From: an uncultured Halomicronema sp.
GTDB taxonomy: Bacteria > Cyanobacteriota > Cyanobacteriia > Phormidesmidales > Phormidesmidaceae
Direction: 5' to 3'
DNA length: 47,111 nt
NCBI GenBank assembly: GCA_937899725.1
Contig: CALCCA010000078.1
Span: 1 to 47,111 of the forward strand
Part shown: positions 9,996 through 19,006 of the stretch, in pieces
Numbering within the stretch: position 1 is the stretch's first letter
Layout: the number at the start of each line of letters is the position of its first letter
Notes under the pieces: generated by a model
Told to the model about the DNA's origin: nothing
The model's input: the letters and a program-made list of their open reading frames with translations, nothing else
The model's database searches: none
Position numbers and translations under genes: made by a program

Positions 9996-11408
9996 TCACA
10001 GCTCTTGCCCAGTGGGCGCATTGATGGTCAGCTTTTGCTGTCGTTTGTCGTGCAGGGCTAAGAGAATTTCTTGATGGCGCTGCCGATTAATCGGATAGCG
10101 ATAGGCAAACCAGACGCTGCACAGCAGCAAGACTGCGGGCAAGGGGCCAATCAGCAACCGAATTGTCCACAGAGCTACCGGCGGTTGGGTCGTCGCCTCT
10201 GCGGCAAAGCCGGTGAGGTCTAACAGCGTGCCCGAGGCGAATAGGGCCACGGCGATGCCGAGTTTCTGCAAAAACACCACCGCGCTAAAGTACAGCCCTT
10301 CGCGGCGCAATCCGGTTTGTAGCTCATCCAAATCCACCACGTCAGGCAGCATCGAGAACGGCACCATATACATCGTGGCGACGCCCGTGCCCGCAACCAT
10401 GCCCAGCAGATACATCATGACGACATCCCCCGGCTGCAGGGTCAGCAGCAGCAGCAGCGCTGCAATGGCTAAGGGCGCCCCCAGCATAAAGACCGTTCGT
10501 TTACCGCTTAGTCTCGCTACCCGCTCCCACACGAGCACCATGGCGATCGCCGTGCCCTGTACGGTCAGAGCCATGCGGGCAAAGTGACTTTCCGATAGGC
10601 CCATCCACGCGCTCACAAAATACGGCAGCATCACCGCCGTGAGTTGAATGCCAATCCAGCCGCACAGATAAAGCCCCAAAATCTTACGAAAAGCCCCATT
10701 TTTAAACACGCTGCGAATTTCTGAGAATAGTGAAGTTGTCTGCTTCTGCGTGTGAAGTTTGGGCCGGCTGGCGTGCACCAGCCAATACCGGCGATAGGTG
10801 CCCACCACGCAAATCAAAATCATGAATACAGCTGGGACGGCCGAGAGGCGACCCAGGAGATGGTATTGCGCTCTCGGATCGACCACATGATCAAACACGA
10901 TTTGGGCCATGACCAGACCCAAAATGCTGCCGCTAATGCTGAAGGCTGACTTCATGCCAATCAGCGCCGTGCGTTCGTCGTAGTCATCGGATAGTTCAGC
11001 CGCGAGAGTCGTATAAGGCAGCTGCACCGCCGTCAGCGAGGCAAAAGCAAACAGCGAGAGGATAGCATAGTAGGCAAAGAGGCCCCATTGCGTTTCGACT
11101 GGGGGAACCGTCCACAGCAGCACAAAGCAAATCGACAGCGGAACCGACCCGATCAGCATCCAGGGATAGCGCCGCCCTAAGGGCGATTCGGTGCGATCGC
11201 TTAACCAGCCCACCAGCGGGTCGTTGATCGCATCCCATAGGCGGCCAAACATGAGTACGCCCCCGGCCAGCGCCGGGCTCAAGCCCGCCACTGACGTAAA
11301 GAAATAGAGCAGAAAGAACGCTGACAAACTAGACGGTACCGCCGCTGCGAGTTCTCCGGTGCCGTAGGCTAACTTGACTGAAAAGGGTAAAGGCGGCAGT
11401 TTCCGCAA
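9996..11408 (-). CDS. MFS sugar:cation symporter, GPH (MelB-like) family
   Basis: The 470-residue protein has twelve predicted membrane helices. N-terminal KLAYGTGELAAAVPSS and the loop DPLVGWLSDRT followed by GRRYPWM are hallmarks of the glycoside-pentoside-hexuronide:cation symporter family, related to melibiose permease. Such proteins import sugars or glycosides with sodium or protons; the substrate cannot be told from sequence. A short basic tail follows the last helix. The start at 11408 (MRKLPPLPFSVK) fits the family. It is transcribed toward prfB, with about 150 bases between them. Confidence 0.85.
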   Translation of the reverse strand: MRKLPPLPFSVKLAYGTGELAAAVPSSLSAFFLLYFFTSVAGLSPALAGGVLMFGRLWDAINDPLVGWLSDRTESPLGRRYPWMLIGSVPLSICFVLLWTVPPVETQWGLFAYYAILSLFAFASLTAVQLPYTTLAAELSDDYDERTALIGMKSAFSISGSILGLVMAQIVFDHVVDPRAQYHLLGRLSAVPAVFMILICVVGTYRRYWLVHASRPKLHTQKQTTSLFSEIRSVFKNGAFRKILGLYLCGWIGIQLTAVMLPYFVSAWMGLSESHFARMALTVQGTAIAMVLVWERVARLSGKRTVFMLGAPLAIAALLLLLTLQPGDVVMMYLLGMVAGTGVATMYMVPFSMLPDVVDLDELQTGLRREGLYFSAVVFLQKLGIAVALFASGTLLDLTGFAAEATTQPPVALWTIRLLIGPLPAVLLLCSVWFAYRYPINRQRHQEILLALHDKRQQKLTINAPTGQEL

Positions 11409-11882
11409 GGCTGAGATCTCCTATTAGGGCATGACCGATATTCCCATACCGGCGCCGGCCATCATGTTCTAGTGGGGGCACCGCACCGGTCCCCCAACCG
11501 AGTTGCTCCGGCCTAGGTCATGAGGCCCGAGGACGGCGACCGTGGCCGGCAAGCAACATTCTGCAGACATCCCTGATGGTGTCGCCTGTACATAGCCTCT
11601 TTGCCCTGGCATCGAGCTGGCCCGATGACGACCCTGGCGACGGCAATAGCGGCTGGCGATGGCGATTAGCTCGGCGACTGCTTGCAGTGTAGCCCGACAC
11701 GATGGTTGGTTTCTGTTGTTGCCAACCGGTATCGTTGCGGCTATCAGCTCAATCCATTACAGAGAAGTGCCAGCGATCGCATAAAACCATGGCTAGCCGT
11801 CACCCATTGATTTTCGTCGCATGAACTGAGCTCTGTGGTAAATAACCATCAGTTCGCCATGGCTCAGCCCGATAAACTTGAC
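11409..11882. other. intergenic, no gene seen
   Basis: This 474-base stretch lies upstream of the symporter and downstream of the Cache kinase. A bulged hairpin near 11473-11497 pairs two runs of five G and five C. Short open frames on the minus strand have poor composition. I see no RNA gene. Confidence 0.4.
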
Positions 11883-14126
11883 TTATACCGTCGCCGGTAC
11901 TGAGGTCGCCGTGGGTACCGTTATGCCATCCGTCTCATTAGACGTTTGATGAATGGGAATCTGAATCACAAACTCGGTACCTTGATCCAGCGTGGAATCA
12001 CATTTCAGACCACCGCCATGTTTTTCGACCACAATGCTGTAGCTGATAGACATGCCCATGCCCGTGCCTTTGCCGAGCGGTTTGGTGGTGAAGAAGGGGT
12101 CAAAGACCCGCCGCTGCACTGGCTCAGTAATGCCTGGGCCGTTATCGGCGATGGTAATGCGAACCTGCTGATTTTCCAGCAGCGCTGTGGTGATTGTGAT
12201 GATGTTGGGATTGGCTTTAATCGCCGCTAGCGATCGCGATTCATTCATCTCCTCCAATGCATCCAATGCGTTAGAGAAGATATTCATAAACACCTGATTG
12301 AGCTGTCCGGCATAGCATTCCACGAGGGGCAGATCACCATACTGGCGAATGATTTCAACCGCTGGTTGCTCGGGTTGCGCTTTGAGGCGATGGTGCAAGA
12401 TGACCAGCGTGCTCTCCAGCCCTTCGTGAATATCGACCGATTTCATCTCGGCCTCATCCATGCGTGAGAAGTTACGGAGCGATAGGACAATCTGACGAAT
12501 CCGCTGAGTGCCTAACCGCATCGAGGCCAAGATTTTGGGCAAGTCCTCTTGCAAAAAGTCCACATCGGCATCTTCCAGGCTGTGCTGAACCGCTGAATCC
12601 GGTTCTGGATAATGCTGCTGAAACACGTCCACCACCTTCAACAGGGCCTGTGAGTACTCTTCCACATGGGTCAAGTTGCCGTAGATAAAATTGACGGGGT
12701 TGTTGATTTCGTGAGCCACGCCTGCCACCAACTGCCCCAAGCTCGACATTTTTTCGCCCTGAATCACCTGCAGTTGAGTTCGCTGCAACTCTGTGAGCGC
12801 GGCTTGTAACTCGGCAGTACGAGCCTTTACTCGATTTTCTAACTCGCCTTTGCTGGCTTCGATCACCGCAAACGATTCGCGTAACTGCTGAGCCATGTAA
12901 TTGAACGAATGGGCCAGTGTGTCGAGTTCCCGAATGCCACTATCACCCACCGCTTCATCGAGTGAGCCGGAGGCAATTTTTTGACTCGCAGCATTCAATT
13001 CTTTGACCGGGCGAGTAATATGCCGCGCCGTTATGAGGCCAAAGACGGTCGCCACGAAAAGAGCACCGCCGCACAGTAGAGCAGTGGTACGAGCATTCGC
13101 ATAGATCTGTCCCATAAACACCCGCTGCGGCACCGCCACCACAAACATCCAGTCGAGGCCGTAGTCATCTTGCCAAGGTTGAACCTCGACAAAATAGGTC
13201 TCGTCGTTCAGGTTCAGATGCAGATCTTGAGATTCCGAGAGCGTGACCAAGTCTGAGGCTTGCTGTAGGTACTGCGCAATGCCTTGAATCCTCTCGTCGG
13301 GACTGTTGATGGCGTTGATTCGTTGAATTTCACCATCGACCAGCTTGAAGGGATCCTGATCACCAGAGCTGGCAATCAGAGTGCCATCCCGCTCAACAAT
13401 AAAGACTTGACCCGCTTGACTGATTTCTAATTCCCGCAGGAAGTCGCTCAGCTTGAGCAAATGAATATCCGCTGCGATCATTCCCAGTAGTTGGTTATTA
13501 GCATCGTAAACTGGTCGTCCGGCAGAAGCCGTAATGTAGGGGTAACCATCTGGATGCATCCAGGTATAGATGCGCGACCAGGTCGGCTCTCCAGCGGCGA
13601 GCGGCTCGTTGTACCAAGCTTCGCTGAAGTTATCAAAGTCAAACGGTGCGTTGACCGACAGGCGATTGCCTTGCTCGTCAGTGGCATAGTTGAAGCCGTT
13701 ACCGGGAGAATTCTCAGACCAGTCGTCAATGGTGACCGTTTTGCCGTCGTAGCGAGCTGCCCCGGCCCCAGCCCCCGTCGTCAATCCATAGCCAACGTAG
13801 GTTAGGTCATAGGCCTGCATTTGCCGCCAAAAATACTGGGCCGTAGCTTCGCGATCGTTGAGGTCGAGCAGGCCCATCTGAATCGCATCGGCATTGATCT
13901 GATTGACCTGGTGGGGGATCGACAAATAATAATCCAAGCGACTATCAACGGTTTTAGTGACCTCGTTGATGAGCTCTTCTGCTAACTCCTCAACCGCTTG
14001 TTCACCCTTGCGGAACGAGATATAGCCGATTAGACCAACAGCTCCAAAAATCTGCAGCACAAAGGGCACAATCAGAAAAAGCTGCAGGGCTCTACCCCGA
14101 TCAGATATTCGCATTTTGGCAACCAC
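11883..14126 (-). CDS. Cache-domain sensor histidine kinase
   Basis: A 747-residue membrane sensor. Membrane segment 1 is at about 15-36. An extracytoplasmic region of about 300 residues (40-340) looks like a double Cache ligand-binding domain (SAGRPVYDANNQLLGMIAAD and FIVERDGTLIASS are typical). Segment 2 is at about 348-367, followed by HAMP (about 366-418) and a coiled-coil linker. The H-box is GQLVAGVAHEINNPVNF with His472, and the catalytic boxes are the N-box FSNALDAL, ADNGPGI, DPFFTTKP and GTGMGMSIS. It resembles the cyanobacterial hybrid-free kinases with the AHEINNP motif. No response regulator is adjacent, so it is an orphan kinase in this window. The start is the ATG at 14126; MRISDRGRALQ a few codons on is an alternative. 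Confidence 0.9.
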   Translation of the reverse strand: MVAKMRISDRGRALQLFLIVPFVLQIFGAVGLIGYISFRKGEQAVEELAEELINEVTKTVDSRLDYYLSIPHQVNQINADAIQMGLLDLNDREATAQYFWRQMQAYDLTYVGYGLTTGAGAGAARYDGKTVTIDDWSENSPGNGFNYATDEQGNRLSVNAPFDFDNFSEAWYNEPLAAGEPTWSRIYTWMHPDGYPYITASAGRPVYDANNQLLGMIAADIHLLKLSDFLRELEISQAGQVFIVERDGTLIASSGDQDPFKLVDGEIQRINAINSPDERIQGIAQYLQQASDLVTLSESQDLHLNLNDETYFVEVQPWQDDYGLDWMFVVAVPQRVFMGQIYANARTTALLCGGALFVATVFGLITARHITRPVKELNAASQKIASGSLDEAVGDSGIRELDTLAHSFNYMAQQLRESFAVIEASKGELENRVKARTAELQAALTELQRTQLQVIQGEKMSSLGQLVAGVAHEINNPVNFIYGNLTHVEEYSQALLKVVDVFQQHYPEPDSAVQHSLEDADVDFLQEDLPKILASMRLGTQRIRQIVLSLRNFSRMDEAEMKSVDIHEGLESTLVILHHRLKAQPEQPAVEIIRQYGDLPLVECYAGQLNQVFMNIFSNALDALEEMNESRSLAAIKANPNIITITTALLENQQVRITIADNGPGITEPVQRRVFDPFFTTKPLGKGTGMGMSISYSIVVEKHGGGLKCDSTLDQGTEFVIQIPIHQTSNETDGITVPTATSVPATV

Positions 14127-14485
14127 ATTAGACCATCGACGTCACTAGAAGAGTGCCCATTAACGAAAGCATAGTCAATCTAAAACAAATCTAAAATTGC
14201 GATAGTTTCTGTAAATCAATATTTTTAGGTTATTTTACTGACATGCCCAATCTTTTTGTCTTCATACCTAGATTGCACGGATGACGGCTTGGGAAATTCA
14301 GGAAATCTCATTACGACTGTTGATTTTTAGAACCTGGAAATCAACAATGTAGTGTATGAGCTGGTTAGACAAACTGTCTTGAGTAAAAGCACTGATGAAA
14401 GATCGTTGGCCAAGGCCAAACGGTCTCGAAAACTTACTGTTGCCAAACAGCATAGTAAAGAAGTGCCAGTTGCCAGAAACTCTCT
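14127..14485. other. AT-rich upstream region of the Cache kinase
   Basis: About 360 bases with no credible gene. The stretch 14155-14275 is conspicuously AT-rich and probably holds the promoter of the minus-strand kinase gene. No clear -10/-35 pair could be assigned. A 92-codon minus-strand frame (14298-14576) crosses palindromes and is not credible as a gene. Confidence 0.35.
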
Positions 14486-14642
14486 GAAATTCAAGAATTT
14501 CTAAAAGGGCGAAAAAAATCGCCCTTACTGCGGACATAAAGTCACCTAGAAGGGTGACTTGTCCTGACATCAACAACCCTGCTGAACATACTCAGAGGGG
14601 ATGTCTAAGCAAGGTATAGGATTTTACCTGAACATCCTCTCT
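14486..14642 (-). terminator. cascade of four hairpins downstream of the SET gene
   Basis: Four inverted repeats lie in 157 bases. They are 14486-14492/14495-14501 (7-base perfect arms), 14505-14512/14519-14526 (8-base perfect arms, homopolymer loop), 14539-14546/14553-14560 (8-base perfect arms) and 14594-14604/14632-14642 (11-base arms, one mismatch). Read on the minus strand, the second is a GC-rich stem ending in CTTTTAG, a plausible intrinsic terminator for the SET-gene transcript. The others could be mRNA 3'-end stabilisers or a structured RNA. Confidence 0.45.
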
Positions 14643-14663
14643 TTTGCAGAGCAAGACTGTGCC

Positions 14664-15134
14664 TCAAGCTGACACTTGAGCTTCTATACCCTTGCCAACT
14701 AAGTGTTCTAAGGCGGCACCACCAATATGGCGATTAATGAAGTAGCGACCTAACACATTTAGCGGCAAATCCCTTGCCCCTGAGATCGTGCCAATACAGT
14801 TGGCTGTGCCACACAGGCAGGTAAATGGCTCTGCCATCGCCCACTCCGTGCTGGGATAAAAGAAGGTCAGGTCTTCACCGGGTTGGATATCACGGATCGC
14901 TCGCAATTCCAGACTGGTCGCATCGATGATGACATTCGGATTGCAGCTGTGATTGAGATGAGCTAAGAAATGTTCTTCAATGCTCTCGTCTGAGTCAATT
15001 TGAACGCTTGTGTAGGTTCGTTCATCAGCAAAGCGATAGTTCGCGATGGTATGAAAAGCCGCGCCGCGCTGAATCGGCTGGGTTGTGGTCAGGCGCTTAC
15101 CTTTACCATCTGCCGCTGTTTGCACAATAAGCAT
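14664..15134 (-). CDS. SET-domain protein (putative lysine methyltransferase)
   Basis: This small protein (156 residues) carries a SET fold, which uses S-adenosylmethionine to methylate lysine. The signature NHSCNPN is at 61-67, the C-terminal SET segment GEDLTFFYP at 86-94, and a post-SET zinc cluster CLCGTANC (Cys106, Cys108, Cys113) that probably works with Cys64. I chose the ATG at 15134 (MLIVQTAADG) because GGAG precedes it and the fold begins there; an upstream ATG at 15221 adds 29 residues of poor composition. It is the second gene of a minus-strand unit, 117 bases after the helical protein gene. The substrate is unknown. Confidence 0.85.
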   Translation of the reverse strand: MLIVQTAADGKGKRLTTTQPIQRGAAFHTIANYRFADERTYTSVQIDSDESIEEHFLAHLNHSCNPNVIIDATSLELRAIRDIQPGEDLTFFYPSTEWAMAEPFTCLCGTANCIGTISGARDLPLNVLGRYFINRHIGGAALEHLVGKGIEAQVSA

Positions 15135-15251
15135 GTTGAGGAATCTCCGAAAGGGTGTGTGAAATGATTTACGAAATTTGGCAGCGTGACTGACTTGGCC
15201 GCCACGTGAGTGGTCGGGCAAGGTCGGGCTGCGACGAGGACTAAACAGGTA

Positions 15252-16109
15252 TTAAGCGGCCACAGAGAGCCCTGCATGCTCTCGAAGTTCTTGCTGGACT
15301 CGCTGGAAAAAGCGGGTTTGGATCGTGGCCAACTGACGGACACCTTGGCCTGCCCATGCCACAATTTGGCCCTCGGATACCGAGGAATAGCGAGTTGCAA
15401 GGTTCAATGCCTGAATCGCATCATCGGCATGGCCGAGTTCGACGCCTTCGGTTGTCGATGTGCCGTGAATCACGATCCAATACCAGGGGCTGACCGTGCC
15501 AGCTGCAAACCGGGCTTTATGCTGCTTGATAAACTGGCCGAAATCGCCCTCGCGTTGACCCGAAAAGAATATCGAGTTGATGATGCTAAACTCATTGCCG
15601 CCAATCGTTTCAGCGGCGGCGTGAAAGCCCATTGCCCGCACCATCTGCTCTAAGCTGTGAGGTTCTGCCTGATAAGCATCCTGCACGAATTGAGTCATGT
15701 CATCTAGCCAGCTTTCGGCCTGCATCACCCGCTCCACCGCCGCGTCAGAGAGCCCAGCGTACGCGGCCAACGCATCGAGTAGCGCATAGGCCAGCGTGCG
15801 ATGAGAAACGCCCGTGCGAGGATCCTGAAATTCTTCGATAGAAGCAGAAAAAACTTTGGCGGCAACGTCCATCCCACGGTTGCTGTGGCGGGCGATCGCG
15901 ACCTGTGGATCGCAGAATTGCTCACTGCGGCCAATGGTGCCACATAGGGTCGGTACTGAGTGACTGTAGGAGGCGCTGTACTTCACAAAGCGCTCCATGA
16001 ACAAGTGCATTAATTCAGGCGATGCGATCGCTGCTTGACAAGCACTTTTCATGGCAGCGTTGATATCATCAGCATTCAAATAAGCCTGAAAATCATCTAA
16101 CGTAATCAT
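15252..16109 (-). CDS. conserved-looking helical protein, possible heme-oxygenase-like metal enzyme
   Basis: The 285 residues are all-helical by eye, with no signal peptide or membrane segment. I do not recognise a named family with certainty. Several acidic and histidine residues are spaced as in heme-oxygenase-like diiron oxidases: Glu93 and His103 (ten apart, in EEFQDPRTGVSH), Glu167 in HAAAETIGG, and His215, Glu224 and His227 in IHGTSTTEGVELGHADD. This pattern is suggestive only; PqqC-like cofactorless members share the fold. GGGAG lies about 10 bases before the ATG at 16109. The SET gene follows, so the two are probably co-transcribed and act in one pathway. The substrate is unknown. Confidence 0.6.
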   Translation of the reverse strand: MITLDDFQAYLNADDINAAMKSACQAAIASPELMHLFMERFVKYSASYSHSVPTLCGTIGRSEQFCDPQVAIARHSNRGMDVAAKVFSASIEEFQDPRTGVSHRTLAYALLDALAAYAGLSDAAVERVMQAESWLDDMTQFVQDAYQAEPHSLEQMVRAMGFHAAAETIGGNEFSIINSIFFSGQREGDFGQFIKQHKARFAAGTVSPWYWIVIHGTSTTEGVELGHADDAIQALNLATRYSSVSEGQIVAWAGQGVRQLATIQTRFFQRVQQELREHAGLSVAA

Positions 16110-17116
16110 CTCAAAATCACTCCCTTAGAAGTCAGAAACGGTAGGTAACTGCAGCTATTCGCTATAAATCGAACTCAACACACAGGCAAACATTTAAGGC
16201 TGTCTGACAGTAGACAACCCATCGGTTTTTCAAGAAATAGAAAGCACCTCACTAACCCTGCCCTTAAGCTGGTGACGCAGCTCAAAAATCTTCAGCCTGG
16301 TTTAGCTATCTCCACAGTTGACGACAGTGAAGCAACTCAAACTAAGCCGCAGTAGTCACGCAATGACTTATGGCGGTATGAGGGTGGTAAGAAATTAAAG
16401 GAACTGCGTGCTGATGAGAACCCTGAACCCAGAGAATCAGCACAACATTTCACTCGCCACCGGGATGGCTGAGGGTGACCAAGGTCATGACAAAAACACT
16501 TGTAGCAAAGCGCAGCAGGGGAAGCCTGAGACGCTTGGGGGCACTGCCAAAAGGAATTGCTTGATCGAGACCCGGCCAGATTATTAAACCGCTTGCCCCC
16601 TAAGACTGTTGCCAGTGCTTTTAGAAGTGGGCCAGTTAGTTGAATAATCTGAAATTAATATGAAGCAATTAAAAGTTAACACAAAGAAACGAACAGTCAA
16701 CATAAATTCGCGTTAGTTATTAAAATATTTGGGAGAGGGATCTCCAGAAGTCCTGTCTTCTAGCCCTTTTGACGATATTCGTTGACCCATTCATTAATTT
16801 AAATCGGCGATCTGTCTCAGAGCGGATGACTTAAGTTTGGTGATGAGTTACCCGATATCTTGCCGCAGACGCATTTAGGGCGTCGTTCAAACGGTCCTTG
16901 AACAGTGAAGTTGAGTTGTCTAAAACCTCACTTTAGGTGCTTTTTTATACGCCAGACATGGAGTCGCAGGACGGGGCGCTACGCTGAGTATTGAAGGCCG
17001 ATAGAGCCGCAAATTCCTCACAAAAAAGGAGCAGAGCGATCGCCCTGCCCCCGACTGGAGTAGCTTCTCCTTTTAACCTGACGGGTTATTGAGTTACACG
17101 CCCCTTAGTCATGCCC
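16110..17116. other. 1-kb gene-poor region
   Basis: No ORF with a convincing start or composition is seen on either strand. The first 150 bases should hold the promoter of the helical-protein gene. A perfect 8-base inverted repeat with a 20-base spacer lies at 16408-16415/16436-16443. The segment 16640-16800 is AT-rich. At about 16919-16947 a short stem (CTAAA/TTTAG) is followed by a T-run on the plus strand, which could end a small RNA. I found no small peptide gene associated with the SET unit. The last part contains the terminator of the HpsJ-type gene. Confidence 0.4.
17022..17074 (-). terminator. hairpin terminator of the HpsJ-type gene
   Basis: On the minus strand AAAAGGAG (17074-17067) pairs with CTCCTTTT (17031-17024), followed by two more T. 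An inner near-palindrome containing the HIP1 octamer sits in the loop. It starts 43 bases after the stop codon at 17117. Confidence 0.45.
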
Positions 17117-17896
17117 CTAAGCGCCACCCATGCTCAACAAGCGACGAAGCCCCGTCCAGCCAATCACGATGTAGGCGATCGCCATAATGAAGCTACTGAT
17201 GGAAACTCGAGTTGCCGACTTAATGGCTTCTCGTCTTACCTGAGAGCGCGCTTCTTCGCGACGAGTGCCGATCTCAGTGGCAATCTGCTGCTGTGCTTCG
17301 CCTGCTCGCTGGGTCAAAAACTCATCTAAGCCCGAAGGATTACCTCTGAACTGCTCAATCTCTGCCGGCAGCTGTCCAGCTTCGATCGCCTGCTGCAAGA
17401 GTGCATCATCTTCAAACAAAATCTGTAGCTGACTTTGCTGCTGGTTAAGCTCGCCTTCGAGGCGTTGCTCAAGCTGTGAAGTCGCTTGATTTGCCTCGCG
17501 CTCAACTTGCGCTAGGGCCTCCTGGGTCGTAATGCGCACGTTATTCACGTGTAAAAATGTCACCACTAAAAAGATGAGACCCAAAAGGCTAGAAATCGCA
17601 CAGGCCCAAAAGCGTAAGTCGGTAAGCAGAGTCCCTGGCTGGGCTGACTTGCCAGCACTGCGTTCAACCCAAAAGCCCGCAAGTAGCAGGGCAATACCGA
17701 CCAGCGGCACAATCCCTCGGTCAACAATTTGGGTGGTCGCGTTGAGCTGCCACTGAGCATTCAAAAAATCGGGCGGTATCAGTAAAACCAAAAAGTCTAA
17801 GAGCGCTGACGCAATCGTTACCACGCCGACAAGTTTCAGCGCGATCGCAGCTAAGGGAGAAACCGCAGAACTTGTAAAAGAATTTTCGGCAGTCAT
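17117..17896 (-). CDS. HpsJ-like membrane protein
   Basis: The 259-residue protein has three membrane segments at the N-terminal side (about 18-40, 61-77, 94-116). A long Gln/Glu-rich probable coiled coil follows (about 120-225), with a final membrane segment at about 233-253. This layout matches the HpsJ family, which takes part in hormogonium polysaccharide secretion and motility in filamentous cyanobacteria and is also found beside cyanoexosortases. The ATG at 17896 (MTAENSFTSS) is chosen because the frame upstream to 18004 is low-quality sequence. No other hps or exosortase genes are nearby, so the role here is open. Confidence 0.65.
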   Translation of the reverse strand: MTAENSFTSSAVSPLAAIALKLVGVVTIASALLDFLVLLIPPDFLNAQWQLNATTQIVDRGIVPLVGIALLLAGFWVERSAGKSAQPGTLLTDLRFWACAISSLLGLIFLVVTFLHVNNVRITTQEALAQVEREANQATSQLEQRLEGELNQQQSQLQILFEDDALLQQAIEAGQLPAEIEQFRGNPSGLDEFLTQRAGEAQQQIATEIGTRREEARSQVRREAIKSATRVSISSFIMAIAYIVIGWTGLRRLLSMGGA

Positions 17897-18517
17897 AAAG
17901 TTTTTAGGGCTAAGGGTTCGCGATAGTGTGCCCGGTTGGCTTTCGACAACATCAGGGCAAAACAAATGCCAACGGTGAGTTGGCAACAAACTGGCTCTTT
18001 GCACTGGTTAGCCAGGCAAAAGACAACCTCTCAAAGCTACACCCTAGCGCCACAGCTAACGGGGTTCACCGAAAAAACTTTAACTCTTTTGATAGAAACT
18101 GTGAGGCCGACTGACTCAATTCCGGATGGGTTGTCGGTCTCTAGTAAATCGATGCGAGTTAAATCTAGAACGACCAGCTAGCAGATATGGCGTAGATGTA
18201 CTGACGAATGATGACTCGGGTTTAAGGCTCGCGATTGCCGGTTCAAAGTCGGTAACAGCCCCAGGATAGGGAGAATTTTGCCAGGTAAGACTGTCGTCTA
18301 TCGATTTCAGAAATTGGAGTTTACCTAAACCTGCCAACTCCAGCCTGACAGACTATTTAGTCGATCAACTGATCACCTGGGAGCCTCAGACGGATATGGC
18401 GGTCTGGTACTAGCCTGGCAAAGATGGCCGCTGAAACCAGACGACACATCTGGCCTCCTGGCTGCCCCTCGGCATGGCCCACTTGGTGGCAGCCGTGCCG
18501 GAACGCAGGGCCGGTGG
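17897..18517. other. intergenic, no gene seen
   Basis: About 620 bases between two minus-strand genes. Short overlapping frames exist on both strands but none has a ribosome site or protein-like composition. The promoter of the HpsJ-type gene should lie in the first 150 bases. Confidence 0.4.
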
Positions 18518-19006
18518 TCAATTTTCTAGGGGTATCAGCCGTTCAAGATTGGCTGGATCGACCTCATAGGCCGCGCCAAAGCCCACCACAAACCGACCGG
18601 CTTGCGGGGTAAGCTTGAAAATCTGGAAATCGGGCAGTTGCCGCAGCATGTCAATTAAATTGCCAAATCGCGCCTTAAACTTATCTGCCAACCCAGCCCA
18701 CTGGGGATCATGGCGCTCAATCAGCACTACGCCACAGTCATACATCAGACGTTGACGCGCAAAAATTTGCGGCGCTTGCGCCTCATCCTCAATCAGCAAA
18801 ATCCCGGCTTTTGCCGTCGTTTGGAGATTTTGAGTGTGCTTAGAAAGTCCACTCACGAAAATGTAGAAGGCGCGATCGCCCGCCATCACAAACGGGGTAT
18901 AGCTTGCTTGTGGCTGCCCCTCAGCACTGATTGTGCTCAGCATCAGGCTTTGCAGGCGACTCGGAAAGTCGATGTAGGCAGACTGGATCTCAGTAAAACT
19001 AACCAT
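18518..19006 (-). CDS. HugZ-like pyridoxamine-phosphate-oxidase-fold protein
   Basis: The 162 residues form one split-barrel flavin/heme-binding domain. Features seen in HugZ-type heme-utilisation proteins are ASYTPFVM (34-41), FYIFVSGLSKHTQNL (47-61), LIEDEAQAPQIFARQRL (71-87) and the C-terminal GRFVVGFGAAYEVD. HugZ proteins bind and can degrade heme; many relatives are uncharacterised. The longer frame upstream to 19147 is rejected because it would run into the divergent gene; the ATG at 19006 starts the fold. Only 46 bases separate it from the plus-strand SRPBCC gene, so their promoters must overlap. Confidence 0.75.
   Translation of the reverse strand: MVSFTEIQSAYIDFPSRLQSLMLSTISAEGQPQASYTPFVMAGDRAFYIFVSGLSKHTQNLQTTAKAGILLIEDEAQAPQIFARQRLMYDCGVVLIERHDPQWAGLADKFKARFGNLIDMLRQLPDFQIFKLTPQAGRFVVGFGAAYEVDPANLERLIPLEN

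Follow-up and report, generated by a model that had tools for sequence, protein, structure and literature searches.

Two neighbouring minus-strand genes in a 47,111-nucleotide stretch of cyanobacterial DNA (the window; it belongs to a genome of 6.99 Mb, G000) encode a predicted heme-oxygenase-like dimetal oxidase (HDO) and a SET-domain methyltransferase resembling BurB. Our main reading, to which we give a probability of about 0.5, is that both enzymes act on a small amino-acid-like molecule and that the sensor kinase encoded downstream senses its substrate or its product.

The HDO candidate, a protein of 285 amino acids taken from the listing of open reading frames (ORFs) and from its predicted model, is encoded at 15252..16109 on the minus strand. 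It is followed, after an intergenic gap of 117 bases (15135..15251) in which no inverted repeat was detected, by the gene of the 156-amino-acid BurB-like SET protein (14664..15134, minus strand), which was assigned by its PF00856 match (E 1.3e-10), the PDB search, Foldseek and a tree. The SET ORF starts with ATG at 15134 and ends at 14664; an alternative, longer reading with a TTG start reaches 15221. A spacer of 537 bases with short inverted repeats (14127..14663) lies between the SET gene and that of a 747-amino-acid sensor kinase (11883..14126, minus strand) with dCache_1, HAMP, HisKA and HATPase domains, the probable third partner according to Pfam and to the comparison of neighbours. The preliminary description of this locus had placed both genes on one strand 117 bases apart, had named the shorter one a SET protein and had noted a gene-poor kilobase beside them; all of this was confirmed, with no listed ORF of at least 60 amino acids in 16110-17110. 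It had also regarded the unit as isolated from housekeeping genes by a hairpin cascade, which held only in part. The gene-poor stretch and six inverted-repeat pairs in 14120-14670 (raw count; three short ones are perfect) agree with it. However, the first large ORF beyond it on that strand encodes the dCache-HAMP-HisKA kinase, so the unit is not followed solely by housekeeping genes. Terminator-like sites in 14000-17200 were not in excess (5 found against 4.0 ± 1.7 in shuffles), and within 11000-19000 no Rfam family reached its gathering threshold.

An AF2 model of the 285-amino-acid protein, built from alignment A2 with its 12 rows (11 relatives besides the window protein), had a pLDDT of 91.2 and a pTM of 0.89. 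Its top Foldseek match was a cyanobacterial CADD-like protein (E 3.3e-4), followed by PolF-type azetidine synthases (from 6.2e-4). The Z scores given by VIA-align, in which differences below 1 are ties, were 19.3 for HrmI (218 residues at 2.9 Å), 18.6 for PolF, 18.4 for CADD, 17.3 for UndA, 17.1 for BesC, 16.3 for PqqC and 14.7 for SznF, and TenA-type proteins reached about 14 to 16. As PqqC, TenA and heme oxygenases appear in the same match list, a metal site cannot be deduced from the fold by itself. The residues first pointed out as a possible site are all present: E93 and H103 (codons 15831-15833 and 15801-15803, forming E-x9-H at 15801..15833), E167 (15609..15611) and H215, E224 and H227 (H-x8-E-x2-H, 15429..15467), all on the minus strand. 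E93 and E167 were kept in 12/12 rows, the window protein included, H103 in 10/12 (it is Arg in L005 and lost in L007) and H215, E224 and H227 each in 11/12, L007 being the sole exception; the full 3H/3C set was retained in 10/12. H163 and E173, in the same predicted helix as E167, were also invariant. The motif of the third core helix is lengthened to H-x8-E-x2-H in the window protein, with a predicted break between helices, and it is readable because relative L006 keeps H-x3-E-x2-H. An excerpt of an HDO review locates the 3H/3C set on the core helices in the majority of members (PMC13108848). The Z scores of PqqC and the TenA-type proteins, together with homologue L007, which lacks H103, H215, E224 and H227, would suit a metal-free protein of the PqqC or TenA type; but a full 3H/3C set in 10/12 rows and the E-x9-H spacing shared with most PF14518 members compared make such a protein very improbable. 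The heme-oxygenase-like fold that had been suggested was thus supported by structure prediction and comparison, and the possible metal site by a ligand set conserved in the sequences; from model and alignment the protein is very likely an HDO-type oxidase, whose metal is probably diiron.

At the sequence level the 285-amino-acid protein had no Pfam match up to E 1, no PHROGs match up to 0.1 and a single NCBIfam match far under the cut-off of that family. When 10 members of the HDO alignment A1 were scanned against Pfam, only chance-level matches were obtained, one member each. The PDB sequence search gave a chance-level match with the protein itself and none up to E 5 with the A1 profile, and tblastn against a plasmid collection yielded zero matches. 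A PF14518 comparison set, consisting of 8 hand-chosen sequences of the 17 matches from related genomes, kept the 3H/3C ligands, with E-x9-H in 6/8, E-x6-H in 2/8 and H-x3-D-x2-H in 8/8. Alignment of the HDO clade with this set by hhalign was weak (probability 2.5%, E 0.019); within it, E93, H103, H215, E224 and H227 fell on PF14518 ligand columns and E167 was left unaligned. Because of this weak score, sequence alone does not prove kinship, and the HDO assignment rests on fold and ligands. The window HDO belongs to a rare, unnamed cyanobacterial HDO clade. Matches were found in 9/59 relatives (among them the window genome itself; two of these matches are fragments or very weak), in 4/386 genomes of the phylum (again with the window genome) and in 8/63 genomes of the family (a count that takes in the window genome and one with fragments). 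Two short HDO remnants in G033, of the same family (L080, L081), were read as decayed copies. Separately, an HDO relative with H-x3-E-x2-H (L041, in G007) clusters with an ATP-grasp amino-acid ligase, a putative amidoligase and a GNAT-like gene.

The SET protein is a single-domain SET that has the active-site Tyr as well as post-SET cysteines. In the PDB search BurB (9l4t) came first, with E 1.8e-18 over residues 3-144; the following match, a histone enzyme, reached E 9.5e-7 over residues 59-120 only, and a histone-type protein-lysine SET was rejected as the closest class since this best match of its kind is partial and far behind BurB. Identity to BurB was 36% (51/140), a level comparable to the 35% that an extract of the published work (PMC7496086) gives for BurB and the corresponding S. 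mobaraensis protein. The SET model (9-row alignment, pLDDT 76.5) retrieved BurB-SMM-SAM as the top Foldseek match (E 4.8e-9, TM 0.68). As controls, the SET relatives L074 and L070 likewise matched BurB first in the PDB; one more distant cyanobacterial SET matched histone enzymes first, with BurB in 16th place, and another (L053) matched BurB first at 1.1e-11 by a smaller margin. In a 17-row tree BurB, on a long branch, grouped with the window-type SETs (support 99/96). BurB converts methionine into S-methylmethionine (SMM), as described in excerpts of two papers (PMC12542666; PMC7496086). Of its residues, R70, T73, H93 and Y124 are kept in the window SET, and R42, A44, H72, S88, V130, M132, R133 and H138 are changed. 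The six SAM-contact residues of BurB correspond to K11, K13, Y41, H62, E102 and L107 in the window protein, one being identical (H93) and one conservative (R42 to K). As several named residues differ, the protein is described as one that would work like BurB and not as BurB itself. Sequence and analogy indicate that it is probably a small-molecule enzyme, and a methionine or sulfonium as its actual substrate, proposed by analogy, is doubtful. Genes for the BurB partners (SMM decarboxylase, aminotransferase and aldehyde dehydrogenase) could not be recognised when the window ORFs of at least 150 amino acids were read by eye.

The neighbours of other SET relatives were also compared. The SET gene of G019 lies beside an A-MT-T-reductase NRPS, a BesD-like HalD and a dCache kinase, and that of G430 adjoins a HalD. 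In two cyanobacteria a BesD-like HalD stands directly before the SET gene (L070:6859-8250 and L076:6846-8104); against the NCBIfam BesD model, the HalDs scored 203 and 71.6 bits, below its cut-off of 450. An aminotransferase and a 2-hydroxyacid dehydrogenase adjoin the SET genes of G405 and G124, and EamA transporters are encoded near those of G324 and G124. At L071, L074 and L075, an LL-DAP-aminotransferase-like gene lies near the BurB-like SET, as does a 2-hydroxyacid dehydrogenase, an arrangement that resembles a transamination-type route; the L075 SET has an internal stop. HalD was discarded as a general SET partner: only 6/386 genomes had a match, three of them strong, and a SET gene lay within the short flanks in one of these three (G430). 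The window genome had zero HalD matches. An NRPS partner was not retained there either; the search gave 7 matches, the best being 41% identical over the reductase part.

Protein lysine is the classic target of SET domains, and the preliminary description had offered, as one possible example, a lysine-containing substrate that is methylated and oxidised, taken here to mean that the SET enzyme methylates a lysine within a peptide or protein and the HDO then oxidises it. HDOs do include enzymes that modify ribosomal peptides, as stated in part of the same review (PMC13108848). On the other hand, among solved structures BurB stands clearly closest to the SET protein, and in the 10 loci compared nothing matched the flanking spacers or the small ORFs, a 92-amino-acid ORF among them, in a meaningful way. 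Phormidesmis RL_2_1 (G456) likewise shared no matching small ORF with the window, and a RiPP-type precursor was discarded on these grounds. The lysine proposal is therefore improbable, and owing to the BurB relationship and to the amino-acid-metabolite genes near SET relatives a small molecule resembling an amino acid, which may be a sulfonium, was put in its place.

The two genes are adjacent in three genomes only: the window genome, Phormidesmis RL_2_1 (G456) and Leptolyngbya SIOISBB (G005), the last of the same genus as the window. The HDOs of these loci are 72-73% identical, and the gaps between HDO and SET measure 117 bases in the window and 302 and about 40 bases at the other two. Among the 63 family genomes, the three with a SET at least 70% identical are the same three with an HDO at least 72% identical. 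The SET gene beside the HDO of G005 (L043:9504-10030) is a pseudogene, interrupted by several stops and a change of frame. A second, intact SET of this genome, 76% identical to that of the window, lies 1.5 Mb away by another dCache kinase and an A-T-reductase NRPS whose adenylation domain is split over two reading frames. In the stretches around other HDO loci (L012, L014, L015, L016 and L036-L042) no SET match was detected. Conservation of the genes as neighbours, suggested earlier as a check, was found in three genomes; in the stretches covered it does not extend to the other HDO loci, and in one of the three the adjacent SET has decayed.

Other HDOs have different neighbours. In G014 and G022 a fatty-acid (FA) desaturase-type gene follows directly, together with an unnamed membrane protein; in Scytonema NIES-4073 an FA-desaturase-type gene also follows directly (loci of this type are L036, L037 and L012). 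The HDOs of G397 and G122 adjoin this unnamed membrane protein as well as a dCache kinase, and that of G047 adjoins a PLP decarboxylase. The unnamed protein had no family match, and "membrane protein" is a reading of its sequence. This variety of partners, and the fact that the paired loci are only three, closely related and in one case with a SET pseudogene, would be expected if the HDO functioned by itself or with different proteins and its SET neighbour had arrived there incidentally in a single small lineage. However, the paired genomes span two genera: 4/6 genomes of the window's genus are without both genes, and in the other genus (7 genomes) intact copies occur only in G456. In addition, gene order, strand and downstream kinase are identical at two of the three loci and the gaps are short. 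Incidental adjacency is for these reasons rather unlikely, and the HDO and the SET enzyme would probably serve one pathway, although no SET was seen beside the other HDO relatives compared and the adjacent SET of G005 has decayed, that genome nevertheless retaining an intact copy by an NRPS.

The desaturase neighbours bear on a further explanation, in which the HDO, like UndA, has a fatty acid or lipid as its substrate and the SET performs unrelated chemistry. The FA-desaturase-type genes directly after the HDO in G014, G022 and Scytonema NIES-4073 and the Z score of UndA speak for it. Nevertheless, an FA desaturase of that type gave no match in the stretches examined at the window, G456, G005, G397 and G122, and the model resembles HrmI, PolF and BesC, all of them enzymes with amino-acid substrates, about as closely as UndA or more so (Z differences below 1 being ties). 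A lipid substrate is unlikely on this evidence, and a small amino-acid-like substrate is preferred.

The sensor kinase has its closest relative in the tree at the same position in G456, the two sensor parts being 64% identical. Such kinases were found within 5 kb of 7/18 HDO or SET loci against 0.106 expected from chance placement, a count that is post hoc (the link was noticed before the test), uses distances and counts entered by hand and includes G005 twice. The 18 loci were 10 HDO and 8 SET loci, and 17 genomes were searched with the sensor part, of which 16 had at least one match. L012, L014, L015 and L016, which belong to genomes outside these 17, were omitted, as were the fragments of G033, G016 and G034 and the weaker SET matches; one G405 SET, with an internal stop, was included although imperfect, and so were G022 and G007, where the contig stops close to the HDO. 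L012 has a different kinase with a response regulator, and the sensor part of the window kinase had no match at L012, L014, L015 and L016. The seven loci are not independent, since the kinases of G000 and G456 are nearest in the tree (99/99) and those of G397 and G122 likewise (93/85); the remaining three (two of G005 and one of G019) branch apart from both pairs. When the G122 kinase was searched in the 386 genomes, the top three were G122, G397 and G014, the same three that carry the second HDO clade. A fourth, G152, followed closely, at 57% identity against 59%, but gave no match to the HDO, and both searches scored few candidates per genome.

In PctA, R126 is the Arg that binds the amino-acid carboxylate in the dCache domain, according to a section of the work describing it (PMC10104139). 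In the window kinase, with the alignment read by eye, this position is Glu, and it is usually acidic in these kinases; the WY pair and the late Asp are present. The change from Arg to an acidic residue was rejected as a receptor-specific mark: it is common to many kinases of the clade encoded away from HDOs, and the kinase adjacent to the G005 HDO has Tyr, so that it constitutes weak evidence. A functional link of the kinase to the HDO and SET enzymes is, on balance, somewhat favoured. As a separate observation, contig C172 of the window genome (L083) carries a paralogous dCache kinase next to a Trp_halogenase-type flavoprotein, with a ferritin-like protein encoded nearby.

In the proposed pathway the SET enzyme would cap an amino-acid-like small molecule using SAM; if its action follows that of BurB, the cap would sit on sulfur and a sulfonium would result. 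The HDO would then use O2 to cleave, desaturate or rearrange the molecule, and the downstream dCache kinase would most likely sense the substrate or the product. A bolder version, in which the SET makes a sulfonium amino acid, the HDO converts it into a new molecule and the kinase, with an acidic residue in place of the carboxylate-binding Arg, is its dedicated receptor, is improbable; if true, this signalling cassette would join a SET and dimetal-oxidase pathway to a sulfonium-derived cyanobacterial signal. Should the main reading be correct, an unnamed HDO clade would be added together with a pairing of HDO and SET enzymes for which our searches gave no printed precedent, and there would be a cheap test of whether bacterial SETs near metabolite genes are small-molecule and not lysine methyltransferases. 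The recurrent kinase would offer a direct handle on the metabolite, its ligand probably being the substrate or the product. No pairing of an HDO with a SET was found in the openly licensed literature, most subscription papers being outside this scope, and within that literature only the BurB paper joins a SET domain, S-methylmethionine and DMSP.

Comparison of the window proteins with known systems revealed both shared and distinctive traits. With the HDOs HrmI, PolF, CADD, UndA, BesC and SznF the 285-amino-acid protein shares the fold over nearly its whole length (Z 14.7 to 19.3) and the 3H/3C set, and its E-x9-H spacing is that of 6/8 PF14518 members compared. It differs from them in having no Pfam match, PF14518 included, and no NCBIfam match above the cut-off, in its H-x8-E-x2-H motif where the others have H-x3-D/E-x2-H (the exact spacing is not treated as defining), in the additional invariant H163 and E173 of its clade and in an identity of 5 to 15% to the listed solved matches. 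The SET protein is, like BurB (PDB 9l4t, 9l4v), a small single-domain SET, 36% identical over 140 amino acids with the gating-loop region aligned, and it keeps the active-site Tyr (BurB Y124, window Y93) and the post-SET cysteines. In contrast to BurB, it has Leu in place of S88 and five of the six SAM contacts changed (one from R to K), and it lies next to an HDO and a sensor kinase in a window where DMSP-pathway partner genes were not recognised. Regarding the BesD/BesC pathway, the window genome has no HalD match and the HalDs found elsewhere fall below the NCBIfam BesD cut-off, whereas HalD genes do lie beside SET relatives at two loci and the neighbour of the window SET resembles BesC (Z 17.1). 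Finally, although the window kinase has Glu where the carboxylate-binding Arg of the dCache_1AA and dCache_1AM kinases is expected, it shares with them the dCache_1 domain, the WY pair and the late Asp.
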